NCBI GenBank assembly: GCA_037043015.1
Contig: CM073329.1
Coordinates: 8,076,648-8,140,647 of the forward strand
Source of the DNA: Bryum argenteum
Taxonomy: Eukaryota; Streptophyta; Bryopsida; Bryales; Bryaceae
Reading direction: 5' to 3'
DNA: 64,000 nucleotides
The translations under genes were made by a program, and so were the position numbers. Shown piece after piece: positions 1,389 through 59,190 of the stretch; the first letter of the stretch is position 1, and each line of letters begins with the position of its first letter. Under the pieces are notes generated by a model. That model worked only from the letters and a program-made list of their open reading frames with translations, made no database searches and was not told where the DNA came from.

Positions 1389-1460
1389 CCCTTAAACGTC
1401 AAGCCTCTCTGAAAATACACTGGAAACCAAGCCCGAGGGGCATGCTTGGACGTTTAAGGG
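1389..1460. mobile_element. 72-bp TTAA-flanked MITE (piggyBac-like, family D-type ends)
   Basis: The element starts CCCTTAAACGTC and ends GACGTTTAAGGG, so its terminal inverted repeats match over about 16 of 17 bases. It is flanked on both sides by TTAA (1385-1388 and 1461-1464). Its right part (GCCCGAGGGG and the end) resembles the right ends of the longer elements at 26047 and 54807, so it is probably an internally deleted derivative. At 72 bp it is nearly nothing but ends. Confidence 0.75.
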
Positions 1461-1464
1461 TTAA

Positions 1465-1909
1465 ACTTGGCCAGCGAGCTGGTCACGGAACCTCATGGGC
1501 AGGGCGAGGTCGCTCGGGCAGGGGGACGGAATTGGACAGCATACATCCAACACTGATCACAACGTAACTCTAAACCTCGACTCCAATTGTGTAATCTTCG
1601 ACTTCAGTACCCTCACTTCTGTTTTGTACTTGTCCAACCTGCACAGTCGCAAAGCTCAGCACATTGTGTACGAAGGAAATTAAAGCAAGCGTCCCTACTC
1701 CGTGAAAAGGAATCTGTGCATTTCAAGTCTCTACATGATGCCAAAATCGTAGCCTGTAACCACTAGTCAAAATTCAAGAGAATTGTGACTCAAGGGAATT
1801 GGTTGCGTGTAGAAAGACGTACCTGCTTTGGGCTTGGGCTTCGTCATGTTCCTCAATCTAATGGTGAAGAGCGTTCTGGGCGATTCCCAATTCTTCCTCT
1901 AGAGCCTGT
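1465..1909. other. intergenic, no gene recognised
   Basis: A short phrase, CACAACGTAAC(C/T)CTAAACCT, occurs at about 1558 and again at about 1910, which hints at a local duplication. Nothing else is recognisable. Confidence 0.4.
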
Positions 1910-2281
1910 TCACAACGTAACCCTAAACCTGGACAGGTATCCTGCTGCTGCTCTCCTCAACTTTCCATTGCAGCACCCGGCCATGTTCACCTTCTCAGGA
2001 TTGGAAAGCTTCCCGATTTCCTGAGGTAACTGCTTCAAACATAAACACCAGCTCAAATCCAGCTCCTTCAAATTTCTCATGTACTTAATCTTGACACCAT
2101 CGCATGAGCTCTTTCGTAATGCATGATTCTCGATCTCCACTACACTACACACTGTTGTTTCAACCAAATCCACAGAAGATAATGAGTTCAAAGATGGAGC
2201 TTCAGGACCGCTCAAGGCAGTGTTGAGGTGAGATTCGTGCTTGATTATCCTAAAATTACTTCCATAGAATAATGTGATCAC
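1910..2281 (-). pseudogene. leucine-rich-repeat gene fragment (NLR/RLK-type LRR)
   Basis: This minus-strand frame of 123 codons contains one clear plant-type leucine-rich repeat: MRNLKELDLSWCLCLKQLP, then EIGKLSNPEKVNMAGC, near residues 68-105. The LxxLxLSxCxxLxxLP layout is the one seen in LRR regions of plant disease-resistance proteins. Upstream residues show no repeat, and no NB-ARC, kinase or transmembrane part lies nearby, so this is either one exon of a larger unrecognised gene or, more likely, a gene fragment. The first codon is not clearly a start. Such fragments often recognise a protein partner when part of a whole receptor; no function can be given for this piece alone. Confidence 0.45.
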
Positions 2282-2575
2282 TTTTCTTTCCCAATCCCTT
2301 GGATCATATTTAGTGGTGATATGTACTGTACAAATCTGAACGGCCCTGGAGCTCCCTCTAGTATGTCTGGAATTAATCTCTACACAGAAGTTTCAGCTCT
2401 AATTCCAGAAACGAATTTCTACAGAAGTCTGAAATTTTGGGTTCTTGCATGAATTGCATCCCTTTGGATCAACTTCTTTTCAGTTATTTTATCTTCAAAG
2501 AACTGTGTTCCATGCCTTAGAGGAGTTCCTCGTGAAAGGCACGTGTTTGTTCATTTTCTTACATTTTCTTCTTAA

Positions 2576-3485
2576 CCCCTAAAAATCGAGGGAAACGGAT
2601 TTGGTATTTTGAGATTTCGGGCAGCTCATTTTAAGCATTTAAATTGATATTTTTGCCTAAGATTTTTACTGGGTGCTCCCCATACTGTAATGTGTATGTG
2701 GTAAAATTTTCAAAGTCAAATTTTAATTTTATAACCCTCACCTAGAAATTTTAGGTTTCAAGTCCAAAACGGGCAATTTAAAATATATATTTTTTAAGTA
2801 TTCTTTCTTGGAAATATGTTCATTACCAAATTACTATTCAAATTCCAAAGTGTCCAAAGTCAAAAAGTTTACCAATTTTACAAGGGCAGCCTCCAAAACT
2901 TTCAAAAATAATCTTCACAATTTCTAGTAATTTTACAATTTTTTCTTTCAAAAATTGCCAAAATTTTCCAAGATTTTTTTCTTTCAAATTCACATTCTCA
3001 TAAATGCACCTACTCACTGTCCAGATATTCCTCAAACTAAATATATCATATGTGGTGCTTGTTTTACTATATTGTTGTTTTTAGACATATTTTCATAAAA
3101 TAATTTACATTAAGGTCAAAAAGTGGAATTGGTCTCTAAAATTTTGCATGAGCATACCCAACTTGATTACCTACATGAAAAAAAATGAGGGAAAAATATT
3201 TGGAATAACAATCATTAAGTTGCCCTTGGCACCATTCAGACAATGCCTCTTAGGCACGGGCAAAAAAAAGTGTTGAAAAACTTTGATCATTATGATCTCA
3301 CAAATGACAAACATCCGACGGTTGAAATTTTGACCAGTCCTTTGTATACAAGTTAGGTACAAGATCTTACGGTTCAAAGTCTAAATCCATATTAAAAAGT
3401 TTCTCCATTTCCCTATTTCCCAACGAAGGTGAAAAATGGCAGTTATTGGTTCTGGAGGTCGAGGAAACGCTTGGATTATTAGGGG
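2576..3485. mobile_element. TTAA-flanked MITE, family A (910 bp, piggyBac-like)
   Basis: The element begins CCCCTAAAAATCGAGGGAA, ends TTATTAGGGG, and is flanked by TTAA at 2572-2575 and 3486-3489. Its interior matches the elements at 27706 and 51154 almost end to end, in the same orientation, with more differences than those two show from each other. No transposase is encoded; the short frames inside are chance. Confidence 0.85.
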
Positions 3486-3848
3486 TTAATACTAAATCTA
3501 CCTGCTAGAATTTCATAAAAGAACTGTAGAATTCTAGCTTCTAGAATGATGAAAATGACAAGTGCCCGTGATAAGTTGTAGTAAGCACTACAGAAGTACT
3601 AATGAAAATTGCATAGAATTCAAACATGATGGTACAAAGCAGTAGTGTTGAATGGAAGAACCACGAAATATAAAGAGCCATGGTTGATTAATGGTGAATC
3701 TGTGTTGTGAATTGAGTAGTTATGAAAATATGGCATATGTATCATTAGTATCTAATACCTCGTTCTTGTGGAAAGTGTTCCCCCATCTTTATTCTAGGTG
3801 TGACATTTTTACTATTGCGTGCTTCCTTGTACTTCTTTGGTTTGTTAA

Positions 3849-4108
3849 CCCCTAAAGATTTACAATGTTTTGAGATCTTGAAATCCCAACACTGACCACT
3901 ATGTACTAATGGGGGTACGTCCAATATTTATGGAAATTTTTGATAATTTCAACCGTAGGATCTTGAAGTAGACTACCTTCAGTAGTAGTGTGAAAATTTT
4001 CAACCGTTGGATCATCACTAGGTGTGAGATCGTAACATTTGAAGTTGGCTGAAATATTTTTTTGGCTTTGACAGTAAAAGCTGAATCGTGGTCGTGGTCG
4101 TTTAGGGG
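3849..4108. mobile_element. TTAA-flanked MITE, family B (260 bp, piggyBac-like)
   Basis: It runs from CCCCTAAAGATT to GTCGTTTAGGGG between TTAA copies at 3845-3848 and 4109-4112. It is the reverse-orientation counterpart of the element at 13034: both carry the phrases about ACTGACCA.TATGTACTAATG and AACCGTAGGATCTTGAAGTA. Confidence 0.82.
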
Positions 4109-4379
4109 TTAAGTAGAAACAAAAAACGAAGTAATAGAAATGATGTGTGTTAGTATATTAGAACCGTATCAACATTGTGACTTATCGTTGTTGTTTTTTT
4201 TCCTTTGTTTTTTTTTCTTTCTTTCTCTGTAACAGAAGTATGTACGAGTGTGTGTAGGATTTGTAGAGGATGTTCTTTGTGTCCGCTCATGCCATCCTCC
4301 CATGTCTTTCAATCATTAATTTCTTGATCATACAACTTGTTGTTTTTTATTTTCATTTTGTAGAAAATTATGTGTTAAC

Positions 4380-9080: not shown

Positions 9081-9133
<53 letters not shown>

Positions 9134-10172: not shown

Positions 10173-10174
10173 TA

Positions 10175-11300: not shown

Positions 11301-13033
11301 GCCAATTAGCGCACTTGGCCAAGTGCATAATTGCTTAATTGCATGTTTAATTGTGTGGATGCTTGAAGATTCCGCTTTACATGGTGTTGTGGGGCTGTCT
11401 GCTAGGACTATCCAAGCTTTTCCAACACATTTCCGTGGCAAAAGAGCAGCAAATTTTATACGACCAAACCGTTAGTGGGTTTCCCGTGACCGTTATTTTC
11501 CTAAAAATGACAACGTTGTGGCTCCACCAATGACATGCACCTGCAACAAATTAGCCAGGCGGTCTCGAATGTTGGTGAAGGGTGCCACTGGACGAGGTCC
11601 ACAACGGTCGGAATGGGTACAATGGTTGTACACACGATTGTTGGAGTCATTTGACATGTACCGCAAATCTAGGGTAAAGTTTTCTTCCAAACTCTTAGGA
11701 GAGTTGGCAATGTCAATTCTTGTATCCCCTGATTCCATTTACCATGCCGAATCTAAAGACTCCAAAGATGATGAACTTGTAATTAAAAAAGATTACTAAC
11801 TCATGGATCCAACAATTTATGGATGTCCATAATGTAGTTCTTTTTATCACAACGGGGTCGATTATTGCTTAGCAATGCTAAAGAGATCCAAATTCAGAAG
11901 ATGGTTGCATACCATCCAGGGTTGCTCCATAGAGGTTCCCAAACTGGAGAGTTTGATGAAAACTTAATGGAAAACGTTGGTGAGATACACTTTGTCATCA
12001 ATATAGACAACGGTAAATCATTGGAATTAAGGGGCGATTCTACCGTTAAATATGCAGATGTTGTGGTTGGGGAGTCCATGACTTTGATTGTGCAAATCTC
12101 TAGGGGGCGGTGATCAATGATCAAAGCGCCTATACTCATTTTTACAGACTCTAATCGTACCTATCTGATTAGAGGTGTCAATGATAACAATCCTAGTGTT
12201 TGTTATTGAACAAGTCCCAAAGGTTGGATAGACACCACCTTAATTCCGGAATTCTTTCTGGAACCCTGTGCTTACGAGCCGGACCTACATCAACGTACTA
12301 AATTGGTGTGGTTAGATAATTGTTCTGGCCATAATAGCACCCCTACGCTAGAAGCCTTTTTGACAGAAAAAAATACAATCCTCAAATTCTTGCCTCCATG
12401 TTGCACAGATTTGTGTCAACTTGTCGACACATTTGTCATTTCCAAGATAAAGGATGCATGGAGCTCAAGTATCTAAACAACAACTTATGGCACTCATATC
12501 AATTTTGCAAGTGAAAATGAACATTGTAATTGAAGCACAAAGCGACAGTGGTCAATTGTGGATGGAACATGTAGAATTTTAGTTCTTTGAACAATTCTAC
12601 AAAAAAGAAGAATTCTTTTTGCAATGGGAGTGAAATACACTATGATGTGGTTCCAATGCCTTTTACGGATTGCAATTCCGATCATTTTTTAGTATATAGG
12701 CACATTTCGAAGTTTTTCAAAAACTGCCTTCAAATGCAATTCGAATTATTTCGGTACCCGACTGTACAGTACATTCTACTTCCATGGTGAACCCCATACC
12801 CTTGTTATACTATTCTGATGGTAATTGTACATCTTGAATTGCATACCTTCCATTGCTGATCATGAGCATGTAAGGCGCAACATTCAAGGGTGGCTATGTT
12901 GTAGACCTACGGTTGCTATGCCACAGCACATTTCAAGGATTCTAGTAATCATCCATCTGTTGCCCATGGAAGTTCGATCGGTAGCCCTCAATTGCTGGTA
13001 TGGAGGATATTTTGGCTGGAAGTAAATACTTAA

Positions 13034-13284
13034 CCCCTAAACGACCACAACCACCGATTCGGCTTTTACTGTCAAGGCCAAAAAAAATTTACAGTCAACT
13101 TCAAATGTTATGATCTCACATCCTGTGATGATCCAACGGTTGAACATTTTCACAATACTACCTATGGTAGTCTACTTCAAGATCCTACGGTTGAAATTGT
13201 CAAAAATTTCCAAAAGTGTTGGACGTACCCGCATTAGTACATACTGGTCAGTGTTGGGATTTCAAGCTCCCAAAACATTAGAGG
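13034..13284. mobile_element. TTAA-flanked MITE, family B (251 bp, piggyBac-like)
   Basis: It starts CCCCTAAACGACCACAACC after TTAA at 13030-13033 and ends ACATTAGAGG before TTAA at 13285-13288, with one change in the terminal GGGG. It is the inverted counterpart of 3849-4108. Confidence 0.8.
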
Positions 13285-13288
13285 TTAA

Positions 13289-14315: not shown

Positions 14316-14421
14316 ATGGCTTTGTATACAATATTGTTCAGAAAAACACATTATGGAGCCCGGAAAAGAAAAATTCCAAACGGTGTTTTGAGGTTGGAGA
14401 GTATAAAGTGGTATAGAGTAA

Positions 14422-14993
14422 CCCCTAAACGTCCACTTTTTATGAAAAACCCACAGTTTTTGGAAAGCTTGGTACACGGAAATAAAAGTAAGTTATTGAA
14501 ATCTCAACTATACAATCTTGTAGTACAGTCAAATTTAGATTCATGCTGCCTTACACATTGCAAGATCGTAATGTATTTGTACTAAAAAATGATCATGAAA
14601 TTTCAGAGTTTTTACTTCAAAGTGGAGATACTATCAACAATCTAGTTGCACTAAAAATCTCACCAATAAGAATGTTGTTTAACTTCATTGTAAAAACACT
14701 CTTGAACACAAAAAACCACTAAGAAAAATCTCTTGCAAGGCTCAAATCATAGCCTTGCAATAATGAAAATCGCCTCATATTTTACAAAGGAAGAGTGGTC
14801 CAAACCGAAACCTCTTGCACTAAAGTCCATATCGTGTTTCCAAAACATATTGGATGACACTAAAATTTCTAGACTTGCATTGTACCTAATTCAGAGAATA
14901 AAATTGAAGTCCAACGGTAGATATAGAAGATTAAACTCCTCAAAGACCATACATTCTTTGGATTCAGCTTCAGGACTGAAGAACGATAAGGGG
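14422..14993. mobile_element. MITE, family C, older copy (572 bp, piggyBac-like)
   Basis: It starts CCCCTAAACGTCCACTTTTT and ends GATAAGGGG. Its interior follows the family C elements at 43550 and 44671 (CTCAAC.(A/G)TACAA.CTTGTA, TGCAAGATCGTAA and a late AACGGTAGAT.AG.AGA phrase) with many differences and deletions. The flanks are GTAA and TTGA instead of TTAA, consistent with an old insertion. Confidence 0.65.
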
Positions 14994-14997
14994 TTGA

Positions 14998-23881: not shown

Positions 23882-23883
23882 TA

Positions 23884-24817: not shown

Positions 24818-24819
24818 TA

Positions 24820-25829: not shown

Positions 25830-26046
25830 CCATACGATAAAACCATAAAGCTATCAACTGGCTTTCTTGTGTAGCAACACTTAACAGAGTTCGGGTGGTT
25901 ACAGTGTGCACTTTACAACCACCCGTGAGTGCAAACCCACGATACAACTACGATATTTGAATTCAAGTGAAAAGATTGAGAAGTATTGTAATAAGGACTA
26001 GTATTATCTAGTATGCTAATTTATGAATCTCTACCCAACCAATTAA

Positions 26047-26366
26047 CCCTTAAACGTCCATGGGTCCAAAACGGGGCACTCAAAAATTGGATCACAACAT
26101 CTTTTGGACTTGGGCATCATGAATGAACCAATCAATGATGATCTTGCAACCTCCTACAAGGTTATGTACAACCCCAGCCTATCTACCACAATCCTTTCAA
26201 AGGACAAAATCATCCATACTAATCGTGATTTGAATTGTAAAATTTCACTTTTTGACTGAATCGTAAGAAGGTGACCAATTTGACATCAAAATATAAGTGA
26301 AGAAGTGAGCTACAGAAAAGTTTCAGTTGGAAACTAGCCCCTCGGGCTTACTTAGGCGTTTAAGGG
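26047..26366. mobile_element. TTAA-site MITE, family D (320 bp, piggyBac-like)
   Basis: It starts CCCTTAAACGTCCATGGG after TTAA (26043-26046) and ends AGGCGTTTAAGGG before TAAA, a one-base decay of the duplicate. The interior matches the element at 54807 (CCTCCTACAAGGTTATGTAC, ATTTGACATCAAAATATAAG). Confidence 0.8.
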
Positions 26367-26896
26367 TAAAATCCCAATTACAAATTAGTAAGAAAAATAC
26401 TCATCTTCTCGTTCACATGAGACACCTCCTGTAGAAACCAACTCAAAATTACCCTAAATTCAATTTGACATCAATTCCATTATTTTGAGACATTTTTAAT
26501 GGTTGCGATCTTCAGAGGCAAAAAATTAAAAGTAAAGATATGGTTAACTAGGATGGAACGAAGCAGAAGCTAAAAGGTAAAGTTAAAGGTTGTCATTTAA
26601 AAATAAATAGTCGGATCAATGTAAAAGGTAGCCAAGTGGAAAGTAAAAAAAAATCTTAACGTTAAAGTCTTTGGTTACTATATAAGCAAGCCTCATTCAA
26701 CAGTTTTTGTTTTATCTTTGTTGGTTGTATAAGCTTTCATACTTGCAAGTTATTGTCCAACCATACTAAATGTTCTACCATACTAATAAAATGCATAGAT
26801 TGGGGTGATCAAATCCTACGACCGTTCCACATGGAATATGGTTGCGTCACCTTCCAACCACATGATACTTGGATTTCATTTAGACCAAAGTCAAAC

Positions 26897-28902
26897 ATGA
26901 TGGATAAATATATTTTTGTACAAAAAGTGGGAGAAGGTTCCTATGGGTGTGTTTACAAAGCCATAAATAACAAAACTCATGAGATTGTTGCCATCAAACA
27001 TTTGATCAACCAAGACATTGCAAGACATCATGAGAATGGAGTAAAAGAGAAGGAAGTGGTGGTTTTGGAAGCTCTAAGAGATCATTCAAATATTGTACAA
27101 CTCAAGGAGGTTATTGTGGAGGATGAGAATATTTATTATGTATTTGAGTACATGACGGGGAATTTGTTACAAAGTATTGAAAACAAGACAACATCACCTT
27201 GTGAAAACGAGATAAGATTATGGATGCATCAAATTTTTAAAGGGGTTGCTTATATGCATAGCCAAGGCTACCTTCATAGGGATCTCAAGCCAGAAAATAT
27301 ACTTGTCCATGGAGGAATATTGAAGATTGCGGACTTTGGCTTGTCAAAGAAGATATGTCATTGTGTCGAGAACATCACCAAGCATGTGTACAATTTGATG
27401 CATTGTAAAGATCGTGGTCCTATGACTACTCATGTATGTTCAAGGTGGTATCGAGCTCCGGAGTTGATACTTGGTTCTCCATCATATTCGGCGGCTACCG
27501 ATATGTGGTCTCTTGGTGTGATTATGGCGGAGATGTTCAGATCTCAACCTATTTTTCCTGGGGCAAATGATAGAGATCAACTTTATCAAATTTGTGCAAC
27601 ACTTGGGCCACCATACACATGGCCGTACACATGGCCGGAAAGTTGCATCCTTGCATCAAATTGTAACTTTCAATTTGAAAATGTTTATCCATTGGTCAAT
27701 CTTAACCCCTAAAAATCCAGGAAAGCCGATTCGGTTTTCTGAGATTTCGGGCAGCTCATTTTAAGCATTTAAACTGATATTTTTGCCTAAGATTTTTATT
27801 GGGTGCTCCACATGCAGTAATGTGTATGTGGTAAAATTTTCAAAGTCAAATTTTAATTTTATAACCTTCATCTAGAAATTTTAGGTTTCAAGTCCAAATC
27901 GGGCAGTTTAAAATAATTTTTTTTTAATTTTTTTTTTTTAGAAATATGTTCATTACCAAATTACTATTCAAATTCCAATGTGTCCGAAGTCAAAAAGTTT
28001 ACCAATTTTACAAGGGCAGCCTCCAAAACTTTCAAAAACAATCTTCACAATTTCTAGTAATTTTACAATTTTTTCTTTCAAAAATTGCCAAAATTCGAGA
28101 TTTTGGATTTTTTCCAAGATTTTTTTTTTCAAAATTCACATTATCATAAATGCACCTTCTCACCGTCGAGATTTTTCTCAAACTAAATATATCATACGTG
28201 GTGCTTGTTTTACTATATGGTTGTTTTTAGACCTTCTTTCATAAAATATTTTACATTAAGGTCAAAAAGTGGAATTGGTCTCTAAAATTTTGCATGAGCA
28301 TAACCAACTTGAATACCTACATGAAAAAAAATGAGGGAAAAATATTTGGAATAACAATCATCAAGTTGCCCTTGGCACCATTTAGACAATGCCTCTCACG
28401 CAGTGGCAAAAAAAAAGTGTTGGTCAAACTTTGATTGTTATGATCTCACAAATGAAAAACATCCAACGGTTGAAATTTTGACCAGTTCTTTGTATACAAG
28501 TTAGGTACAAGATCTTACGGTTCAAAGTCTAAAACCAGAAAAAAAAGTTTCTCCATTTCCCCATCTCCCAACGAAGGTGAAAAATGGCAGTTTTTGGTTC
28601 TGGAGGTCGAGGAAACCCCTGGATTTTTAGGGGTTAAACAACTTGTGCCGAACGCAAGTTATCAAGCACTTGACTTGATTCAATCATTGATATGTTGGAA
28701 CCCTTACAATCGCCTCACCGCCACAGAAGCATTGCATCACCGGTTTTTTAAAACCAATCTTATACCAAGTGTACTTGAGCAGGCCAACTATGGACTTGAG
28801 CAGGCCAACAATGTAGTTGTGCAAGCCAACTATGTAACTAGGCAGGCCAACTATGTACTTGAGCAGCCATGTCCACTATGTGGCTGCGCAGGCCAGATAT
28901 GA
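26897..28902 (+). CDS. RCK/MAK-like (MHK-type) protein kinase, split by a TTAA MITE
   Basis: Two coding segments, 26897-27705 and 28638-28902, join in frame to a 357-residue protein when the 928-bp MITE and one TTAA copy are ignored. It has all core kinase motifs: GEGSYGCVYKA (Gly loop), VAIKHL (Lys), YLHRDLKPENIL (catalytic loop), ADFGLS (Mg binding) and SRWYRAPELIL. Overall it resembles plant MHK and animal MAK/ICK (CMGC group) kinases, which phosphorylate Ser/Thr. ATG 26897 lies just before the kinase domain; an in-frame ATG at 26831 is an alternative. The activation loop is about 14 residues longer than usual and its TxY motif reads TTH. The C-terminus repeats an ANY.LEQ-like unit about five times. 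As it stands, translation stops two codons into the MITE (27710-27712), losing subdomains X-XI. No other intron is seen. Confidence 0.8.
27706..28633. mobile_element. TTAA-flanked MITE, family A, inside the kinase coding region (928 bp)
   Basis: It starts CCCCTAAAAATCCAGGAAA and ends CTGGATTTTTAGGGG between TTAA copies at 27702-27705 and 28634-28637. It is very close to the copy at 51154: about six or seven differences by eye in the first 210 bases. It encodes nothing and lacks obvious splice sites at its ends. Confidence 0.92.
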
Positions 28903-32309: not shown

Positions 32310-32815
32310 AATATTTAAACTAAGTTTTTAGATTTCGAACCGTAAGATCTTATAACTTAGCCTATATTTTTGGTCACTCGATCAAAATGTTCACTGTTAG
32401 GTGTTTATCGATCATAGCGCCCAAAGTTTGTGCAAAAGTTTTTACTGAAATTCCTAAAAACTTTGAAGCTTTGCTCCCAAAAAGTTTGGAAGTTGCCCTT
32501 GTAGAATTGGTAGATTTTTTGACTTAGGACCCTTTTGGAACTCCAATAGTAATTTGGTTATGAAAATATTTCAATAAAAATATATTTAAAAATCTCAAAA
32601 ATAACAAGTTTTTTTTGCTCGCATTGGGTGCGAAAACTAAATTTTGCATTAAAAAACCCTAAAATTGGAATTTGACTTTCTAATTTATTTCACAAACACC
32701 TTGTAGTATAGAAAACACTCGATAAAACCTTAATAAAAAATATTGATTTTAAGCAAAAAACTTGGGCGGCCAGAAATAGCAAAAGACAATATTAGTCTGC
32801 AAAGATAGTTAGGGG
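32310..32815. mobile_element. old, inverted family A MITE remnant
   Basis: In reverse orientation this retains family A landmarks in order: the CGTAAGATCTT block, GCCCTTGTA.AATTGGTA, TTTTTGACTT.GGAC and TAGTAATTTGGT.ATGAA. It ends near GTTAGGGG at about 32815. Substitutions are many, so it is much older than the copies at 27706 and 51154. Confidence 0.5.
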
Positions 32816-43545: not shown

Positions 43546-43549
43546 TTAA

Positions 43550-44520
43550 CCCCTAAACGTCCTTGGGGTATTTTTAGCCAAAAACTCATTTTCAAAAAAA
43601 GTGATATAGATGAAAATAAAGATAAGCTATTCAGATCTCAACCGTACAAACTTGTAATAGACTTGTAGTATATCATGTGGACCAAAACTTGACTCATGGA
43701 ACCTCATAGATTGCGAGATCATAACATATTAGTGCGCAAAACAGGATACAAAATATCATCATTTCCACTTTGAAGTGAAAATACTACCAACATGAAATTT
43801 GCAATCAAAAAATCAGCAACTAGAAAGTTGTTCATCTTCATCTCAAAGGCACTCTTGTATCAAAAAAATTCATCAAAAAAAATCTTGGCTCAAATAGTAG
43901 CCTTGTAGTCGTGAAAACTGCCAAAAATTTTACACAGGAAAAATAGTCCAAAACTAGACCCCTCGCACTCAAATCCATGCCTTTTCTTCATTATATCCTC
44001 AATTGGGTCAAGGTTTCTACCACTAAAAATAGACTATAATTGGAATCCATCCCAAAAAATAAAGTCAAAATCTAACGATGGATGAAGGAGATCTAGCTCT
44101 TCAAAAATCATCCATTTTTTCACTTTTTTCATCGTAGAAACATCATTGCAAAGCCAATACCAAAGTTATCTAGATCAAAAAACTTCCAACTACAAAGTTG
44201 TTGGGATGCATCTAAATATCACACCTATGAAAAAAAATTCATGAAACACTATTTTAGATTTCACATAATTGGCTTGCAATGGTAAAACATGCCAAATGTT
44301 TGAAAACCCAAAAACAAAAGCTGCCTTCACTAAAATCCATGCCATATATTCATACTTCATTTTATGAGTCTGCAATTTTTACCACATAAACGAGACTTGA
44401 TTTGTGACCTAAGCCAAGTGATTTCGTCAAAAATGGAGTTTGGATGAAGAAGTTATGGCTCTTCAAAGTTTCTGCCCTTCATCCAAAATGTCGTTTTTTG
44501 ACACTAGGGACGTTTAGGGG
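43550..44520. mobile_element. TTAA-flanked MITE, family C (971 bp, piggyBac-like)
   Basis: It starts CCCCTAAACGTCCTTGGGG and ends GGGACGTTTAGGGG between TTAA at 43546-43549 and 44521-44524. It is the best-preserved forward copy of family C. No coding capacity. Confidence 0.9.
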
Positions 44521-44603
44521 TTAAGATTGAAGGATTTCATGAAGATACCCTTCATTTGACTTTTATTCTAACACACACTCATATGGAAAACAACCATTCT
44601 TAG

Positions 44604-45809
44604 CCCCTAAGCGTCTTTTCAGACCGAATCAATCTTTTGCCATTTGGAACAACCTAGGTTTTTGAGTTGACCCCCAAACATCCTTTGGGTATTTTTAGCC
44701 AAAAACTCATTTATAAAAAAAGTATTATAGATGAAAATTACGATAAGCTATTCAGACCTCAACCATAGAAAACTCGTAATAGACTTCTATCAGATCATGT
44801 GGACCAGAACTTGATTCATGGCACCTTCTAGATTGTGAGATCATAACATTTTATTGCACGAAACAAGCAACAAGAACTAACATTTTCACTTTGAAGTGAA
44901 AATACTTCTAACATGAAATTTACAATCAAATAATCACCACCTAGAAAGTTGTTCATTTTCATCTCAAAGACTATATTGCACCAAATAAAAATATTGTGGC
45001 TCAAATAAAAGCCTTGCAATGGTGAAATATGCCACACATATTACAAAGGAAAAGTAGTCCAAAAGTAGACCCCTTGCACTCAAATCCTTGCCTTATCTTC
45101 GATACATCTTCGGCACGTCAAGGTTTCTACCACTAAAACTAAACTATAACTTGAATCCATCCCAAAAAATAAAGTGAAATTCTAACGGTGGATGAAGGAG
45201 GTATAGCTCCTAAAAAATCATCCATCTTCTCACTTTTTTCATCGTAGAAACATTGTTGCAAATCCAATTCCAAAGTTATCCATATCGAAAAAATTCCAAC
45301 TACAAAAATGTTGGGGTGCACCTAAAAATCACATCTATGTAAAAAAATAAAAAATAAAAAAATAAAAAACTAAAAGTTGCCTTCACTAAAATGCATGCCA
45401 TTTAAGTTATTCATACTTTACTTTATGGGTCTCCAATCTCCACTACACAAACTAGACTTGCTTTGTTACAAATTTCAGGTGGTCTCGTCAAAAACAAAGT
45501 CGGAATAAAGAAGTTATGGCTCTTCAAAGTTTATGCCCTTCATCAAGAATGTTGTTTTTCAACACTAGGGACGTGTAGGGGTTAATAAAGGTAACAAACC
45601 CCATTTTGCAACAAGGGAATCAAACTTTTTTTTCAACTTTGAATGTTACGATCTCACGATTGGTAAGGAATTTGAAACTAAGTTATGGTATATACATTCA
45701 TGGACAACTTAGGTATAAGTTACATACGTCAGATTACGTCAAAAGTTGAAAATTTTCATCATTGAAAGAGGGTGGTTTTGAGGAGTTTTGGGGCTTTCGT
45801 CTTTAGGGG
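44604..45809. mobile_element. MITE, family E, interrupted by a family C element
   Basis: The outer pieces are 44604-44670 (starts CCCCTAAGCGTC) and 45582-45809 (ends CTTTCGTCTTTAGGGG). The right piece matches the last 250 bp of the family E element at 57072 (TTTTTTTCAACTTT, GATCTCAC, GGTAAGGAATTTGAA). The flanks are TTAG and TTGA, both one base from TTAA. Confidence 0.65.
44671..45581. mobile_element. MITE, family C, nested in family E (911 bp)
   Basis: It starts CCCCCAAACATCCTTTGGG after TTGA and ends GGGACGTGTAGGG(G) before TTAA at 45582-45585. The interior follows 43550-44520 closely, in the same orientation, with an internal deletion near the right end. Confidence 0.78.
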
Positions 45810-45813
45810 TTGA

Positions 45814-47414: not shown

Positions 47415-48942
47415 CTCAGCCCAACTGTATAAATTCGTTCTCTTTCTCCAAAGGTCTCGTAGCTTGGCTAATCCAACTCAAATTTCCGAATGTGATCTGG
47501 CACTAAATAGTCTACCTGCAATGTACGCATGAATGGTATTATGGAAGATTCAGGTTGATCGGTGCTCTGCTCGAAGCCTCGGTCCAATTCTTCTCAGTTG
47601 TCTGCCGTGCATATTCGATGGGGATTAAAAACATGGTGTGGTTTTTGTTTGAGATGCCAAGTTTTCTGTAGATGATATTTTTTTGATCTTTTGTGCTACA
47701 TTATGATCTAGACGGAGGTTTATCTTCCTGAATTTCATGTGAACTGCTGGTAACTTGTTATCGTGTTGTGTTCATGCCTGTGACTTTTCAGATGTGTGCA
47801 CGTATTATGGGGAATGGACACGTCTTGTGGTTTTGTTGCGATTTAGATGCCAAATGTGGTTTCTCTGTGGGTTATGGGAGTCAGGTTCTTTATGTTTTCT
47901 ATGGATGACTGTTTTGTCGTTCTGAAGCTCCTGTAGGTTTGCTGGTCATCTTCAGATTGGTTGTTATCCTCTTGCATTTGAAGTGACGAGTGTTGGATGA
48001 AATTAAACTAAAAGATACTCTTATGGCACAAAAAGTGTCGATTTAAGACACCTCTACCTTTTTTTTACAACATCACTTCAACAATTTGGAAAAGTATCAT
48101 GTTTTTACAGGGTGTCTAGTATCATGTTTTTACAGGGAGTCTAGTATCATGTTTCATGGCATTTTTGCATTACTTACTAGACTCGCGCACCTTCACTCTA
48201 AAGATTTTTCTCGGGTCATATGGAAATATCTGTGCAAAATCACTTCAACTTGTCAAGGCACATAATTATGATGCTTGGTGTTTTGAAGACGAAATTAAAT
48301 GATATTCACTCAAAACCACTTCAAGCATGGGAGGTTTAAGTTGTGTTCTAAGTCATGTTTGACAATTGAGGCATTTCTTAAAGCACAATCATATGAAGTG
48401 TCCTTGCAGTATCCAATAATATCCGGGTGTGTCTTTTCAAAATCATTTCAACAAATCCGAAGAGTTATATCTTGAAGTATATCCAAAGTAATATCTCCCA
48501 TTGTCCTTGCAATATCACTTTCACTTACACAATCTCAAAATGTGTCGAAGAGTCATATGTAGTTACATCTTTCCAATATTACCAACTACTTTGGACATGT
48601 TGACTTCTAAACTGTCCGGAGAATCATATTTGATACGATCTTATCAATGTCAATTTAACAATGCATGCATGTCAAATTGTATCCACGATTACAATGTCAT
48701 GTTCCAAAGCATCACTATAGTATATTTCAACCAAATTCTCACATTCACTTTTATAGTTTATTCAAGTAAATTTTCATGATATGTTGTAATGTGAATGAAA
48801 AGGGTCCAAGCACATTTGGTCTTAAAATGTGCCTAAAGTGATATTAACGATGTTTTTGAGGTATCACTTCTAGGCATTTTTGGTCATAAATGTGTACCTC
48901 TATAAATGATATATGGATCGAAACTCAAAAGAAACAATTCAA
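47415..48942. other. 3' flank and AT-rich intergenic DNA
   Basis: About 47415-48000 is probably the 3' untranslated region and flank of the ELMO gene. At about 48088-48160 a 25-bp unit (AGTATCATGTTTTTACAGGG) occurs three times in tandem. The rest is unremarkable. Confidence 0.45.
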
Positions 48943-50868
48943 CCCTTAAATGCTCAAGGGGAGTTTGGAGTCTAGAAACACTAGTATTCTAAAAGTGTCA
49001 TGGATGAAAACAAAGGTGAGCTATTTAGATCTCAACCATACATACTTGTGTTGGACTTGTTATAGGTCATGTGAACTAAATTTGGAGTCATGAGCTCTCA
49101 TAATTTTGTGAGAAAATACATGTTAGGACTCAAAAATGATCACAAAATTTTATCATTTTCACTTTGAAGTCAAAATGCTACTACCAAACCTATTACAATG
49201 ACAAATTTACTAACTTGGAAATTGTACGAATTCATCTCAGCATCACTCCTGTACAGAGAAAGATTTTTTTTTTTTTTTTTTTTTAAAAAAGGATAATATA
49301 ATAGCCTTACAATGGTGAAAACCGCTGAAAAGTTTACAAAGGAGAAATAGTCCAAATCTACACCCCTTGCACTCAAATTCTTGCCTTACCCTCTAAACAC
49401 CTTTCATTGGGTCATGGTTTTTACCACTTAACCCTTAAACGCCCACGATGTCGAAAAACAACATTTTGGATGTACATCAGAAACTTTGAAGAGCCATATC
49501 TTCTTCATCCGAGGTCCGTTTTGGATGAAATCACTTGGATTAGGTTCCAAATCAAGTCTAGTTTGTGTTGTAAGATTTTCAAGCCCATAAAATAAAGTAT
49601 GAATTGATGGAATACACTTTAGTGAAGACAACTCTTGTTTTTGGGTTTCCAAGCATGGAACATGTATTACCATTGCAAGCCAATTATGTGAAATTAAAAA
49701 TAGTATTTCATGATTTTTTTTTTTCATGGTCATGATCTTAAGGTAATTCTTAGCAACTTTGCAGTGAGAAGTTTTTTGATCCAAATGAATTTGCTATTGG
49801 ATTTGCAATGATGTTTTGTCAACAGAAAAAGTAAGAAAATGGTTGATATTTGAGGAGCTATATCTCCCTCATCCACCGTTGGATTTCAACTCAATTTTTT
49901 GGGATGGCCTCCAATTAGAGTCTAGTCTAAGTGGTAGAAACCTTAACAAGATCGAAGATGTTTTGAAGATAAGGCATGAAATTGAATGCAAAGGGTCTAG
50001 TTTTGGACTATTTTTCCTTTGTAAAATGTACGGTAGTTTTTACCATTGCATGGTTTTATTTGAGCCAAGAATTTTTTTTGATGAATTTTTGTTGGGTAAA
50101 GGACCTATTAAGATGAAGGTGAACATCTTTCTTGTTGGTGGTTTTTTCATTGCAATAGGTATATTGGTAGCATTTCCACCTCAAAGTGAAAATGATGAAA
50201 TTTTGCAGTTTGTTTCTGATATTAATATGTTACGATCTCCCGATCTATGAGGCCTCATGACTCAAATTTTGGTCCACATGATCTTCGATAAGTCTATTAC
50301 AAGTTTGTACGGTTGAGATCTTAATAGCTTCTCTTGATTTTCATCTATGACGATTTATATGGAAATGTGCTTCTCTGCTAAAAATAGGCTCGGGCGTTTA
50401 GTATTAAACTGCACTCAAATTGGAACCCGTCGCAAAAGACAAAGCTCAAATCCAACCGTACATGAAAGAGATAAAGCTCCTCAATAATCATCCATCACTA
50501 AAGATTCATCGTTGCAAATCCAATATCAAAAGTAAATGGATCGAAACTCTTCCAACTAGAAAGTTGTTGGAATTTATCTTGAAATCTTAAATGTGTGAAA
50601 AACTCATGGTATTATTGTACTTATGCTATTCTTGTACTTTTGATTTTGGATAATTGGCTTGCAATGGTAAAACATGCATAATGTTTCACAACTCATAAAC
50701 AAAAGTTGCCTTCACTAAAATACATGCCATTAATTCATCTTTCATTGTATAGGTCCGCAATTTTGACTGCACAAAATAGTCGTGATTTGGGACCCAACCA
50801 AAGTAATTCTTCCATAATGGTCACCATAAGAAGAATGATGTTATGGCTTGTCAAAGTTTGTGCCTTTC
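48943..50868. mobile_element. MITE, family C, interrupted by another family C copy and truncated on the right
   Basis: The left piece 48943-49427 starts CCCTTAAATGCTCAAGGGG after TCAA and follows family C. The right piece from 50408 continues at the next family C position (AATTGGAACCC, AAATCCAACCGTACATGAA). It fades out at about 50868 without the terminal repeat, where the 43-bp satellite array begins. Confidence 0.7.
49432..50403. mobile_element. TTAA-flanked MITE, family C, inverted and nested in family C (972 bp)
   Basis: It starts CCCTTAAACGCCCACGATG after TTAA at 49428-49431 and ends GGGCGTTTAGTA before TTAA at 50404-50407. Its interior is the reverse complement of 43550-44520. The terminal GGG is damaged on the right. 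Confidence 0.8.
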
Positions 50869-51153
50869 ACAATGACCATGAATCAAGGAAATCAAGAAAA
50901 TAAAAAAGGTTGAGAGTGACCATGACTATGAACAGTTGGTATGGTAAATAAAAAAAAGTCGAGAGTGACGATTAAAGTTGGTCACGTAAATACAAAAGGT
51001 AAACAAAGGCCCTAATTCAAGCTTGTGGGGCAAGTAAAAAACTTTGAGAGTGACCATAAGTAGTTGGTTGGGCAAATAAAAAAGGTTGAGAGTGACTATA
51101 AACTGTTGGCTCCACAAATAAAAAAGTTGCCAGTGAAACCTTGATTATGTTAA

Positions 51154-52079
51154 CCCCTAAAAATCCAGGAAAACCGATTCGGTTTTCTGAGATTTCGGGC
51201 AGCTCATTTTAAGCATTTAAATTGATATTTTTGCCTAAGATTTTTATTGGGTGCTCCCCATACAGTAATGTGTATGTGGTAAAATTTTCAAAGTCAAATT
51301 TTAATTTTATAACCTTCACCTAGAAATTTTAGGTTTCAAGTCCAAAACGGGCAGTTTAAAATAATTTTTTAAAATTTAATTTTTAAGAAATATGTTCATT
51401 ACCAAATTACTATTCAAATTCCAAAGTATCCAAAGTCAAAAAGTTTACCAATTTTACAAGGGCAGCCTCCAAAACTTTCAAAAACAATCTTCACAGTTTC
51501 TAGTAATTTTACAATTTTTTCTTTCAAAAATTGCCAAAATTCGAGATTTTGGATTTTTTGCAAGATTTTTTTTTTTTGAAATTCACATTATCATAAATGC
51601 ACCTTCTCACCGTCGAGATTTTTCTCAAACTAAATATATCATATGTGGTGCTTGTTTTACTATATGGTTGTTTTTAGACCTTCTTTCATAAAATATTTTA
51701 CATTAAGGTCAAAAAGTGGAATTGGTCTCTAAAATTTTGCATGAGCATACCCAACTTGATTACCTACATGAAAAAAAATGAGGGAAAAATATTTGGAATA
51801 ACAATCATCAAGTTGCCCTTGGCACCATTTAGACAATGCCTCTCACGCAGCGGCAAAAAAAAGTGTTGGTCAAACTTTGATTGTTACGATCTCACAAATG
51901 ACAAACATCCAACGGTTGAAATTTTGACCAGTCCTTTGTATACAAGTTAGGTACAAGATCTTATGGTTCAAAGTCTAAAACCAGAAAAAAAAGTTTCTCC
52001 ATTTCCCCATTTCCCAACAAAGGTGAAAAATGGCAGTTTTTGGTTCTAGAGGTCGAGGAAACCCTTGGATTTTTAGGGG
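51154..52079. mobile_element. TTAA-flanked MITE, family A (926 bp, piggyBac-like)
   Basis: It starts CCCCTAAAAATCCAGGAAA and ends TTGGATTTTTAGGGG between TTAA at 51150-51153 and 52080-52083. It is very close to the copy in the kinase gene. Confidence 0.92.
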
Positions 52080-52086
52080 TTAAAAT

Positions 52087-52552: not shown

Positions 52553-53537
52553 AAAGGCTATTGGTGAGGCAAATAAGAAAACTTTCACAATGACCAAACA
52601 GTTGGCTGAGTAAACAAAAGTTGTTGACAATGAGAGTAAAGAGTTGGTCAGGGAAATAAAAAAGATTGACGGTGACGACAAACCAAGTTCACGAGGAAAA
52701 TGAATAGGTTCGATAGTGATCATGAAGAATTGGTAGGATAATGAAAAAGGTTGAAAGTGACCAAAATTAGTTGGTCTCGCAAATAAGAAAAGGTTGATAA
52801 GGACCAAACAAATGACAATGAGGAGTTGGTAAGGTAATCAAAAAAGGTTAAGAGTCACCATAAACAGGTTGTTGGACAAACACAAAAGATTGCGAATGAC
52901 CAAAGATAGTTAGTGAAACATTGACAATGACCAAACAACTAGCCAAGAAAAAAAAAATGGAAATGATATGGGAAATAAAATATGGTCGACAATGACCATG
53001 AATAGTTGGTCGGGCAAATAGAAGAGGTTGATAGTGACCATGCACATTTGGTAAGGTATATAAAAAAAGATCGAGAGTGACCATAAACATTTGGCAGGAC
53101 AAGTAAAAAAAGATTGTCAATGACCAAAACTTTTTGGTTAGGCTAATAAGAAAACATTACAATGACCAAACAGTTGGCCGAACAAACAAAAATGGTTGAG
53201 AATGACCATGAATCAAGGTGGTGGAGCAAATTGAAAAGGTTGCTTGTGCCCATGAACCAATTAGTAGGATAAATCAAAAGGTTGAAAGTGATCATAACCA
53301 GTTGGTCGGGAAAATAAAAAAGGTTGATTGTGACCATGAAATGCCGGTCATGCAAATAAAAATGGTTGACAATGACTATGAATTGGTTGGTAGGGTAAAT
53401 ATAAATAGTTACGAGTGACCATGGAGAGTTGGTAGCGCAAATCAAAATGGTTACGGGTGACCATGAATAGTTGGTAGGTTAAATATAAAGGCTGCAAGTG
53501 ACCATAACCACTTGGTAGGGCAAATAAATATGCTTAA

Positions 53538-53797
53538 CCCCTAAAGGTCCAAGAAAGCGGAAATCGCTTTTTGGAATTTCCGCAGGGAGAAAATTCAACC
53601 AACTTTGACCATTATAATCTCAAAATTGGAGAAAAATTAACGGTTCAAATTTATCAATCGAGAAAAGGGTCAAGTTAACTTCAAGATCCTACGGTTGGAT
53701 CTTCTAATCAATGCTTAGATTGAGTTTCTTTGCACCTGAAGTAGAAGAAGGTTCTTTTTGATAATTTGAACAATTTTGTATCAAGGACCTTTAGGGG
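53538..53797. mobile_element. TTAA-site MITE, family F (260 bp, piggyBac-like)
   Basis: It starts CCCCTAAAGGTCCAAGAAA after TTAA at 53534-53537 and ends AAGGACCTTTAGGGG before TAAA. It lies within the satellite array. No second copy of this interior was found in the window. Confidence 0.8.
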
Positions 53798-54219
53798 TAA
53801 ATAGTGACCATGAACAACTGGTTAGGCAATTAAAGAAGGTTGTTAGTGACTATGAACCACTTGGTAGGGTAAATAAAAATGATTAAGAATGACCATGCAC
53901 AAGTAGGGTAACTAAATAAGGTTGAAAGTGATCGTAAAGAATTGGTCAAGGAAATATAAAAGATTGGTCACGGAAATAAAAAAAGGTTAAGAATGACCAT
54001 AAGCAGTTAGCCGAGGAAATAAAAATGATTGCCAATGACCAAACAATTGGATGAACAAAGAGAAAATGTTGACAATGAGCATGATAATTGGTTAGGCAAG
54101 TAAGAAAGGTTTACAATGATCATAAATCAAGCTCGCTGGGCAAATGAAAAGGCTCGATAGTAACCATGAGCAGTTGGTGGGGCAAATAAAAAAGGTTCAT
54201 AGTGACCATTTTTTACTTT

Positions 54220-54562
54220 TATTTTCTGAAGTTTTGCCATTTTTGAGATCTTTAAATTCTTAAAATAAATTTTGTTAAAATTCACAAGCCCATAAAGGCA
54301 CTTACTCACCGTTCACCTTTTCCCTTAAATCAAACAAACTCACTCAAATACATGTTTTATTATATTGTTGTTTTCATACCTTCTTTCCGAAATAAATGTA
54401 CAAAAAAGGTAATGAGTCTCTTAGACAATGCCTTAAAAAATTTGCATCAACTTTGAAAAATACAATCTCACAAATGGTGCAAATCCAACATTTGAGATTT
54501 GAGATGGGAATCATAAGTGTGGTTATATTCAAGATCTTACGGTTGAAAGTTCCAAAAAACTG

Positions 54563-54636
<74 letters not shown>

Positions 54637-54697: not shown

Positions 54698-54806
54698 TGA
54701 AAATTATTCATTCAATCTATAGTATTTGATAATATGAACTATAATCTCTCAAGCTTGTTATGTAATATGATCTTATAAATGAGACTTTTTGTATAAGATG
54801 TGTTAA

Positions 54807-55075
54807 CCCTTAAACGCCCATGGGGTCTAATCAATGATGAACCTGCAACCTCCTACAAGGTTATGTACAACTCCAACCTACCTACCACAATCCTTTCATA
54901 GCACAAAATCACTCATACAAATCATGCTTTAAATTGTAAAAGTTCACTTTTTGACTGCATCATAAGAAGATGACCAATTTGACATCAAAATATAAGTGAA
55001 AATTTGTGTACAATGAGAGTTACATAGTAGATTCTATTGGAAAAAAGCCCCTCGAGTTTCCTTGGGCATTAAGGG
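54807..55075. mobile_element. TTAA-flanked MITE, family D (269 bp, piggyBac-like)
   Basis: It starts CCCTTAAACGCCCATGGGG and ends TTGGGCATTAAGGG between TTAA at 54803-54806 and 55076-55079. The interior matches 26047-26366. Confidence 0.88.
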
Positions 55076-55079
55076 TTAA

Positions 55080-56489
55080 CATATCATATCTCCTAAAATA
55101 CACAAGATACATGTTAAATACTTGTACATCCTCAAATAAAGATTCAAAAATTGCAAATGAAAAATGTGAAAATTTTCATTGATAGTACAAAGTACCGCTT
55201 GTAAGTTGAATTGTTGAAACCAATTATTCAGTTATGAAGTTTTAGTTCATAGATTGTTGTACTCAAAACGGTTGATTGGTGCTTAATTTCAAAGTCGGTT
55301 GTTTCTAATTGCTTTTATGGTACAATTTTCAAACATGATGTGGTATTATGGTTTTGTTATGATTGACATGCCGAATGTGGTTTCATGATTTTTATGTTTT
55401 GTGTTAAATTACAATTTAGTGTATTGCTTTTGTATTTGTACACTTCTTGCAATTTTGTTGGTAATCTTGAGGTTGATTGTTATTGTGGTCCACGGATGTT
55501 AAGTGAAACATAAATATGAGGACATGTATTTGACACAAAAGATGTTGTATAGTATGTTATTTAAAACTCACACAATGCCACAAATTATTGACTAGATTTA
55601 TTCAAGTTGGAGGTACGTTATAGCATTCCAGTGTAATCATGATGTACATTTGAGACTGAGTGGTTTTGGGTACACATTTGGGTCCCCTTCTGTAATATAG
55701 ATGTGATTTGATATCAATACAAAATTAATGATTCCAGTTGGTCCATTCTCGTGGACTTTGCATATCTTCAGAAATTGCTTTCCTTCACCACTCCCCAATG
55801 AGTTTGCCGATCTCAAATTTAGGTTGTTTTAGAGCCACTTACCATATACATCTAAAATTTCAACGGTAGAAGTTTACATCAGTATTGAAAGAATAATGCT
55901 TTGATAAGTATTGAAAAAACTATGATATGAATAAACAATAAATGTTCGATGCAAACCTCACAAATTATCTCGTAGATTCTCAATTAATCTACGATGAAAA
56001 GAAGTATGAGAGAAGAATTGATTCTCCACCATGTTTTCTAATGAGGTTGCAATTTTGACTTTGTATGAAGTCGAAATGCCCTACTCAAATCTAGATATTT
56101 TTCAAAGTGCCCATTTTCTACTGAATTCTTGGATTTCCCAATGTGATATGAAAGGAAATCCAAGAATTTGGTTGAACTTCTTATACTTGTACTTGACAAG
56201 ATTTTACAATTAATTTTTTTACATCATGTTATAAAATACCTAATTCATCATCTGTTGACTTGCTCATTTTGGGGGAAAGCTTGAAGCTTCCTATCTCGTT
56301 GAGCTTTTGAAAATCCATGTCACCTACTCAAGTAACTAATTCATTTTATTAAAAAAAATATATACTTTACTATGTTATCTACAATTGAATATATTCAAAG
56401 TAATATTCCACAAAGTCACTAAATAAAGTGGGTTAAGTCCTAATATTCATTCAAATCAATAATATCTTTTTGAGATATTGCAATAACGA
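55080..56489. other. intergenic, no gene recognised
   Basis: AT-rich with short frames only. Confidence 0.4.
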
Positions 56490-59190
56490 TAATTGGTTTT
56501 GAAATGGCACATGTTTCAGTTTTGTATTAGAATATTGTAGGAGTTGCATTGGATCTCAAAGTTGTCAAGAGCCACATTCAATCTTGAAATGTTGAGAAAG
56601 TTGCATTCGTCCTTAATTTGTATACAAAGTCAAATTTGCCAACTGTTTTTTACTAGACAAAGTTTGGTCATAAAGTGACATTTGAAGAATGTTCGTGCAA
56701 TACGGCAGATCTTGTGCGTGTTTGACACGTAGCATCCTTAAAGCAATATTTGAAAATGGCCATGCGATACGGTGTATCTTCAACGTGTTTGACACGTTTT
56801 GCCTTAAAGCATCTGACACGTCCTTGTGATTTTTCTTCAACCTACCCCTACATGTTTGGTCTTTAAGAGTGTACTTGTTTAGATGATATTTTGTATACAT
56901 CTCAAAAAGGCTATCTAAAACCAATTTTAATAATAAAAATACCATAAATGTATACAATGATTTATGAATCTAATAGCATTTATGAGGCTTTTTATTATAT
57001 AATTTGCATCTAATCACAATAATCGTCCTCATTTTAAATATAAAAATATACATCAGTATTTCTACACTTAACCCCTAAAGGTGAGTGAGACCCAAATCGG
57101 GAGGATTTGACTTTGGTCAACTTCCAACTTACTACTTTTAAATTGCATGAGGGTGAGACCTTTTGTAAAATGTATAATTTTTCATATCTTTCCGAAGAGT
57201 CATCTCATGCTTCAAAATTCCTTATACTTTAGGAGATATTCATGGTCAAAGTTTGGAAAATCTATTTGAAATGTGCCCAAAATTGCCCAAAGTGCTCATT
57301 TATTCCCGAAATGTGTCCCAAATTTATTAAAGTGCAAAAACTTCAAAAATTCACCAAAAATTGAGATTCTACTTCTTTCCAAGTTTTGTTTCTTGTACTT
57401 ATAGAAATGGTAGTAAGGCATGACCTTACCCAGTCTTCAACCCAATAATTTTTTACATGCCTTATTAATTGTTGAAAATAGGCCTTTGTATTTGAATTTG
57501 AGCTTGGAGGTATGCTCAAAATCAAGCAAGCATCTCTATAGGTTTTATCTCTCAGGGTCAAAATTGCATAGACATGTTCTTAACTCAACTAGGAACAAGG
57601 ATTTGAAGAGTATCATATTGAATTTTCTACCAAAACTGGTTCTTTTGACCCCCAAAATATTACTTCTTCATTCTACTACATGGACAAAACTTTTTTTCAA
57701 CTTTAAACACTAGGATCTCACAAATGGTGAGGAATTTGAATTTAAGATTTGGTATACATTACATGTAAAAGTTAGGTACTAGATCATAGGGTTACATACT
57801 TCAAAACTTGTTTAGAATTTTTAAAAACTGCATTTTGTATCAAAAGATGGGGGGTTTGAGAGTTTTTAGTTGTTTTGAGGTTGCTTACCTTTAGGGATTA
57901 ATTATATCTAAGTAGATGCACTTGATAATTGAAAATGAGAACACAAATTATTTGTCAACATGATCATGTTATTCAATCATAACATCATCAATTTTTTGTA
58001 CGAAGAGTTGTAAGTGGAACTTTTATTTCATCAATTTTATAACACATGATAAGAAGAACACAAATACTAATAAAAATAAAAATAAAAATTACTCACAACT
58101 ACTCGAACAAAATATAAAACGGATACCCAAAAATGATACAATTCAAAAATTAGAAGATAAACATCATTTTAATACATTATAATCAAATATCCAACGAGAA
58201 TCATTACAAAAATCAAATAAAAAGCAAATATCATGAAATGAATCACTTCAACTCAGTGGTGCCCCATCCAACATCTCTACACAAAGTCAAAATTCACAAA
58301 ATCAATACCACGTGAACGAATTTAAGTGGGTTGTCCTCATATTTACTTAGATTGATAATGTGTTTACCATATATTTCAATTATGGTAATTGGTTTTGAAA
58401 TGGCGCATGTTTACATTTTCTATTTAGACTTGAAAGTATGATACGAGTTGCATTTGGTTTGAAAGTTGTCAAGAGCCGCATTGAGCGTGAAGAAGTTTTG
58501 AAAGTTGCATTTAATCAATATTAATGAATATATAAAGTCACAACTGTTTTCACCAAATTTTTTGGCACGCTTCGCCTTCAGAGCATCATCGTGGAGTTTC
58601 CCGTGCGATACGGTGGATCTGGCACGTTTCGCCTTCAAAGCAACATCTGGCCTGTGCGATACGGTGAATCTCGCACGTTACGCCTTAAAGCAACATCTGA
58701 CACTATCCTTGCTATTTTTTTCAACAACCAGCGGATGTACAACTGGTCATTAAAAGCATACTACTCTTTATAAAAAATCATGATCATCCCTACACTTAAT
58801 ACTTTCAAAGTAAACACAGTTGATGATTGCAATTTACAACTAAAAAAATAATCTTCCCTCATGTCAATTATATCAGTTATTAAGTTACCAATTTATATAT
58901 TTTTTCGTATAAAGAGCTATAATTTGACTTTTTTATTTCATCAAATGTATAAGACACGATAAGAGAAATACAAAATACTAAATAAAAAGATCAACAAATA
59001 AACTACACTTACTCAAACAATTGTGGAAACAATTTATAAACCTAATATCCCAAAAATAGTGTAATTCAAAAATTACATTATTTTCATACATTATCATTAA
59101 ATATCCAAAGAAAATTATTACAAAAATTCAATAATAAGCAAATATCACAAAATAAATCACTTCAACTCACTTCGTTTAGTGGTGGCCCAT
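56490..59190. repeat. two-copy tandem duplication, one copy carrying a family E MITE
   Basis: Block X (TTGGTTTTGAAATGGC.CATG onward) lies at about 56490-56900 and again at 58385-58760. Block Y (TTTTATTTCATCAA onward to ATCACTTCAACTCA) lies at about 57960-58265 and 58880-59190. Block X contains shorter repeats of a GCGATACGGTG..TC..CACGTTTCGCC-like unit. The X-Y distance is larger in copy 1 mainly because of the element at 57072. Confidence 0.7.
57072..57897. mobile_element. TTAA-flanked MITE, family E (826 bp, piggyBac-like)
   Basis: It starts CCCCTAAAGGTGAGTGAGA and ends TTACCTTTAGGGA between TTAA at 57068-57071 and 57898-57901. The other duplicate copy keeps the empty site TACACTTAATAC at about 58791-58802. 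Confidence 0.85.

Follow-up and report, generated by a model that had tools for sequence, protein, structure and literature searches.

Piggybac-type miniature elements and full-length piggyBac elements with matching ends in the genome of the moss Bryum argenteum

A stretch of 64,000 nucleotides from the moss Bryum argenteum (GenBank assembly GCA_037043015.1, contig CM073329.1, positions 8,076,648 to 8,140,647; hereafter the window) contains short repeats which share C-rich ends and are mostly flanked by TTAA. Known piggyBac elements target TTAA and have ends starting with CCC. The locus raises the question whether miniature inverted-repeat transposable elements (MITEs) of the piggyBac superfamily populate a land-plant genome and, if so, which transposases mobilised them. 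We conclude, with a probability of about 0.96, that the window copies are non-autonomous piggyBac MITEs, mobilised by piggyBac DDD transposases which the moss genome itself encodes in many full-length copies of about 5-6.4 kb.

When one mismatch was allowed, the motif TTAACCCYTAAR matched 27 times in the window, compared with a mean of 1.66 and a maximum of 5 in 100 shuffled versions. In the genome searched (258.8 Mb in 25 contigs), the exact motif was present 24,753 times and its reversed pattern 501 times. The sequence-only reading had expected TTAA to dominate the flanks of the genomic copies, and the tabulation agreed with it: 5636 of 6293 CCCYTAAACGYCC ends were preceded by TTAA and 154 by VTAA. 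Since the reversed 13-letter pattern, used as background estimate, occurred at 515 places, nearly all ends above background carry TTAA. A 285-kb sample was composed of the window, seven loci picked by the TTAA pattern and 20 loci around transposases, with overlapping loci (L003, L009-L020) and identical ends removed. In this sample TTAA stood at 67 of 84 distinct ends, the reversed motif was found seven times, position -4 was T in 76 of the 84 ends and position -5 was unordered.

These flanks allow other superfamilies with an A/T-rich target to be weighed, namely Tc1/mariner (Stowaway, TA) or PIF/Harbinger (Tourist, TAA/TTA), with TTAA produced by chance extension. The proposal draws on the fact that TTAA includes TA, TAA and TTA and that plant MITEs include Stowaway and Tourist. 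All four letters are conserved, however, and the genome-wide counts show a duplication of TTAA rather than of TA or TAA, which rules out the Tc1/mariner as well as the PIF/Harbinger duplication. Furthermore, full elements with these ends encode a PF13843 transposase. Flank counts and parent elements together refute this explanation, to which we attach a negligible probability. CCCTAAA is also the plant telomere repeat; a telomere-like origin was rejected, as single units of the motif are found next to TTAA at the element ends.

The PF13843 profile (piggyBac transposase, DDE_Tnp_1_7) yielded 116 scored matches above the cut-off from 775 candidates (best E value 7.4e-82), and the matched stretch was free of stop codons in 93 of them. 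No match to this profile was obtained in 14 control genomes. A Pfam scan of transposase frames recovered PF13843 in five of five (E 1e-75 to 1.4e-82). Twenty of the matching places were read as 10-kb loci. In 13 of these, a pair of CCC ends at TTAA, alike in at least 12 of 16 letters, surrounded the transposase; of 400 shuffled loci, none had a CCC end pair and 24 had a pair when any letters were accepted. The expectation that the genome would encode a DDD transposase within matching termini was thereby borne out, and the TTAA duplication together with PF13843 transposases bearing the same ends upholds the assignment to the piggyBac superfamily in a land-plant host. Twelve loci were analysed as elements of 4.9-6.4 kb; L023 was excluded, its end pair spanning 8.4 kb, and for L021 the shorter of two possible end pairs was used. 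Also in L021, a similar end pair at 1900-2276 is flanked by AATG and CATT instead of TTAA; it may mark a different family, with CCCTTAAAC ends, or be fortuitous.

The transposase of L034 aligned with the structures 9c0f (piggyBat; E 3.2e-28) and 6x67 (E 3.9e-25), the latter with a chain named 'Transposase' which we take to be that of the Trichoplusia ni piggyBac element. Its triad fell on D268, D346 and D447 of 6x67, presumably the numbering of the piggyBac DDD triad, and all three catalytic aspartates were found in 19 of the 20 loci. A C-terminal Cys/His pattern is visible in the translations; the corresponding Pfam matches were weak and confined to one of five frames (zf-B_box, E 0.45; zf-HIT, E 0.81).

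Within the window, about 17 piggyBac-type copies or remnants were recognised where the sequence-only reading had counted some 18 elements with a total of 10-11 kb. Sixteen element intervals, two of them drawn 67 and 12 bases too long, total 10,421 bases, which is 16% of the window and agrees with the earlier estimate. The copies have the hallmarks of MITEs, being short, numerous and bounded by inverted ends; autonomous partners were found for the 80-bp copy and for families B and C, whereas family D had none among the 12 full elements compared. Families were delimited by sequence grouping, and strands are given below where one was assigned. Family A consists of a 328-bp copy (26043..26370; flanks TTAA and TAAA) and a 277-bp copy (54803..55079; TTAA at both ends), 82% identical over 252 bp. 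The three copies of family B, all with TTAA at both ends, measure 918 bp (2572..3489, +), 936 bp (27702..28637, +) and 934 bp (51150..52083, +); the last two are 96% identical, and the first shares 91-92% identity with them. Decayed pieces related to family B lie at 32327..32815 (-; 69% over 338 bp and 87% over about 31 bp) and 54270..54570 (+; about 70%). Family C comprises 3845..4112 (268 bp) and, in opposite orientation and with 90% identity, 13030..13288; both have TTAA at both ends, and the right end of the second is decayed. Family D includes a 979-bp copy with TTAA at both ends (43546..44524, +), a copy 78% identical to it (44667..45585, +; TTGA on the left, TTAA on the right, a further end being listed at 44600) and an older copy (48939..50910, +; right boundary approximate) split by a younger one of the same family (49428..50407, -; TTAA on both sides, right end decayed). 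A decayed relative of family D at 14418..14997 (+) is flanked by GTAA and TTGA. Three copies set apart by sequence remained ungrouped: the 80-bp MITE at 1385..1464 (end type CCCTTAAACG; TTAA at both ends), a 268-bp MITE at 53534..53801 (+; flanks TTAA and TAAA; end type CCCCTAAAGGTCC) and an 834-bp MITE at 57068..57901 (TTAA at both ends; right end GGGATTAA). Altogether, nine window copies and the nested copy have TTAA at both ends, three are complete with one changed flank (26043-26370, 53534-53801 and 44667-45585), and decay is seen in the copy surrounding the nested one and in the pieces near 14418, at 32327-32815 and at 54270-54570. The window also contains an inverted repeat at 23879-24822 (310-nt arms, 98% complementary, spaced by 324 nt) and a tandem repeat at 60711-61105, whose minus strand reads repeated HTSSAVHEALT-like peptides.

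Two insertions allow the empty site to be read. The 936-bp copy of family B lies within a coding exon of a CDK/MAPK-like kinase, between coding stretches at 26888..27700 (+) and 28639..28902 (+). Read onward from the left stretch, the frame runs into a stop codon within the MITE (27710), and so the kinase carrying this copy is probably cut short. With a single TTAA placed between the flanks, the kinase frame runs on: NVYPLVNLKQLVPNASYQALDLIQ. Searched alone, the left piece aligned with the chain 3niz as far as residue 246; the right piece aligned weakly (E 0.00086) with the same chain, starting at residue 269, and the intervening residues fit 3niz within one. In the nested pair of family D, the older copy has the length of an intact copy when one TTAA is counted.

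According to the sequence-only reading, a single transposase had mobilised several unrelated interiors through shared ends. Ends which are alike across families would indeed make cross-mobilisation possible, but the 20 transposase domains form about five groups (L021/L022/L025/L030/L038; L024/L026/L031-L036; L023; L027/L028/L029/L040; L037/L039) with 35-48% identity between groups, and the transposase loci show different end variants: CCCTTAAACGCCC; CCCCTAAAGATCC or CCCCTAAAGGCCC; CCCCTCAAGGCCC; CCCTTAAGGGTCA. In addition, the interiors match different full elements. Family C is 87.5% identical over 240 bp to the right end of L026. Family B resembles L033-L035 at the left end (about 69% over 160 bp) and at the right end (72% over 400 bp); it also matches L024 internally (77% over 250 bp). 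The 80-bp copy is 88% identical over 34 bp to the left end of L021/L022. One transposase for all families is consequently unlikely, and the term 'unrelated' does not suit families B and C or the 80-bp copy, whose interiors match terminal parts of full elements. Judged by these alignments, several MITE interiors are derived from the ends of full elements.

Several observations speak against the assignment of the repeats to resident piggyBac transposases. Seven of the 20 transposase loci (L025, L027, L029, L036-L039) had no matching end pair, and in L027 the second catalytic aspartate is replaced by E. In the 285-kb sample, 17 of the 84 ends had other flanks, 13 of them one letter off TTAA; out of 17 end pairs, 12 had TTAA on both sides and five had not. 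Movement is deduced from the sequence of one genome. Finally, family D (43546, 44667) had no full-length source among the 12 full elements compared; in the same comparison, 26043 and 54803 gave no match and the 57068 copy matched over 33 bp only. The case of family D, which led the three families searched with 7467 first-look candidates, could be taken to mean that Kolobok or Sola3 mobilised part of the MITEs and that the piggyBac elements merely coexist with them. Both Kolobok and Sola3 have TTAA targets. The full piggyBac elements, however, have the same kinds of ends as the MITEs, and stretches of up to 400 bp in families B and C are shared with these elements. With PF13843 as the transposase profile searched, we regard a role of Kolobok or Sola3 as very unlikely and retain the moss piggyBac transposases as the mobilising enzymes.

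Copy numbers and identities were obtained from searches in which only the best candidates were scored; the identities do not represent whole-family distributions. Over 5.7 kb, the full elements L033, L034 and L035 share 99.8% identity; they reside on three contigs and have unlike flanks. The 83-residue N-terminal domain of this family was 100% identical at 58 of 150 scored places (325 candidates). For family B, all 40 scored copies out of 4122 candidates, the window copy 27702-28637 included, were 99-100% identical. In family D, 39 other full-length scored copies were 95-97% identical to 43546-44524. Most of the 40 scored copies of family A (1379 candidates) were 87-89% identical to 54803-55079; many share one score, and for this reason the genomic copies of family A are probably close to each other. 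The copies with 99-100% identity suggest recent bursts.

The N-terminal domain is a conserved stretch of roughly 90 residues (e.g. RKKSRAWPRVPQGNNFRHHFYRQAAHILGW), encoded in an open frame that precedes the transposase and runs in the same direction. A profile built from six loci detected the domain in every locus except L025 (19 of 20); with the six training loci and three near copies of one of them set aside, this amounts to 10 of 11 loci, some of which are interrelated. In L039 the N-terminal domain and the transposase share one open frame of 1331 codons. Other loci show a candidate donor (CAG or GAG before GT) and a candidate acceptor (CAG or TAG ahead of ATGGAGTGGGA or a similar stretch), and a probable intron would lie between the two parts. 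Pfam searches returned no match for six of six domain members at E values up to 1, and none or only weak matches for three longer upstream frames; matches in the PDB were at chance level (best E 0.29). Our guess is that the domain perhaps binds DNA inside the element ends.

PiggyBac is best known from animals, and contaminating DNA instead of the plant might be suspected as the source of the copies. Against this stands their position in the assembly: transposase matches lie on the chromosome-sized contigs C1-C11, of which C2-C9 also have chlorophyll a/b-binding matches. In the window, the MITEs are neighboured by plant-like genes for an MFS protein, which we take to be a sucrose transporter, an ELMO protein and kinases. 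Contamination is accordingly a most improbable source. The chlorophyll a/b-binding protein at C2:13162170 matched the chains 7xqp_9 and 8htu_9 with about 366 bits, followed by 202 bits for the next chain outside the entry 9vfj, which consists of long multi-domain chains. Both top chains are presumably LHCB9 of the moss Physcomitrium patens; for the LHCII protein that was read, the best match outside 9vfj was also a 7xqp chain. LHCB9 has been described in the photosystem I complex of P. patens. It is present in mosses only, according to the passage concerned (PMC8230411). From these matches the host was concluded to be a moss.

The largest contig, C1 (44.1 Mb, 17% of the genome), is poor in piggyBac elements. 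Its first 100 TTAACCCYTAAACGYCC places span 0.3-34.1 Mb, i.e. 2.9 per Mb compared with 21.8 genome-wide, and it holds five of the 116 scored transposases, two of the 150 scored N-terminal domains (neither of them from the identical set of 58), none of the 40 scored copies of family B and one of the 40 scored full-length copies of family D. None of 90 chlorophyll-binding matches lies on C1, which could be a sex chromosome or heterochromatin. Large tandem arrays occur on C5 (8.16-8.41, 14.73-14.76 and 16.2-16.36 Mb), C2 (25.06-25.09 Mb) and C6 (9.32-9.37 Mb). They comprise strong LHCII-type matches and weak chlorophyll-binding matches, one of the weak ones (L044) resembling an early light-induced protein. 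Such chlorophyll-binding arrays are known from desiccation-tolerant plants.

The following sequence of events is proposed by analogy with the known family. A transposase from the full elements would bind the C-rich ends (CCCYTAAA...) of full and short copies alike, and could in this way mobilise the short copies across families. It would cut the element out at TTAA by hairpin cut-and-paste chemistry and insert it at another TTAA, doubling that target in the process; after excision, the TTAA site should be restored seamlessly, without a scar, and movement may still continue. On a wider scale, piggyBac in mosses might form an old branch that is large, comprises several lineages and is active today. 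Its extra N-terminal domain, perhaps for subterminal DNA binding, is not known in animal piggyBacs, and its flood of MITEs would include exons and hardly reach the largest contig, perhaps a sex chromosome. We offer this wider picture tentatively, at slightly less than even odds.

PiggyBac is a widely used tool of genome engineering, with elements taken from animals. A plant genome with more than 100 scored transposase matches, many of them open, and with near-identical copies would supply plant-adapted piggyBac systems, and the moss genome would be a natural system for the study of MITE bursts. To our knowledge, plant annotation pipelines know only the usual terminal inverted repeat (TIR) superfamilies. 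TTAA elements may be misfiled as PIF/Harbinger or Tc1/mariner in plant annotation, and other moss genomes therefore deserve a second look.

The superfamily as such is already known; new are the moss host, the scale, the recent bursts and the extra N-terminal domain. No paper on piggyBac native to a moss was found among the open-licence papers listed, which makes this a weak negative; at least one of the two occurrences of the term in the moss paper PMC10619864 is the word 'piggybacking'. For the alga Tisochrysis lutea, the TIR/PiggyBac row of a table gives 7 families, 14, 0.04 and 0.26 (PMC5963040). This is likewise piggyBac in a photosynthetic host, but a haptophyte, whereas the moss has 116 scored transposase matches. 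A repeat table for Ceratopteris contains 1230 pieces of PiggyBac at 0.00% (PMC6890710), and PiggyBac is listed among angiosperm MITE superfamilies in a text which gives the Tourist duplication as 3-bp TAA/TTA (PMC10004981). The passages concerned report traces or a name in a list, with neither an autonomous element nor an analysis of ends. Stowaway and Tourist MITEs are likewise short, non-autonomous and present in many copies per plant genome, but they have a TA or TAA/TTA target and other transposases. Compared with piggyBac (6x67) and piggyBat (9c0f), the moss elements differ in their size of 4.9-6.4 kb, a longer protein, a probable intron and an N-terminal domain without Pfam or PDB match. 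They resemble both in the TTAA target, in ends starting with CCC and in the DDD domain, which aligns over about 390-410 residues including D268/D346/D447, and may do so in a Cys-rich C-terminal tail, of which the transposase translations show a Cys/His pattern.

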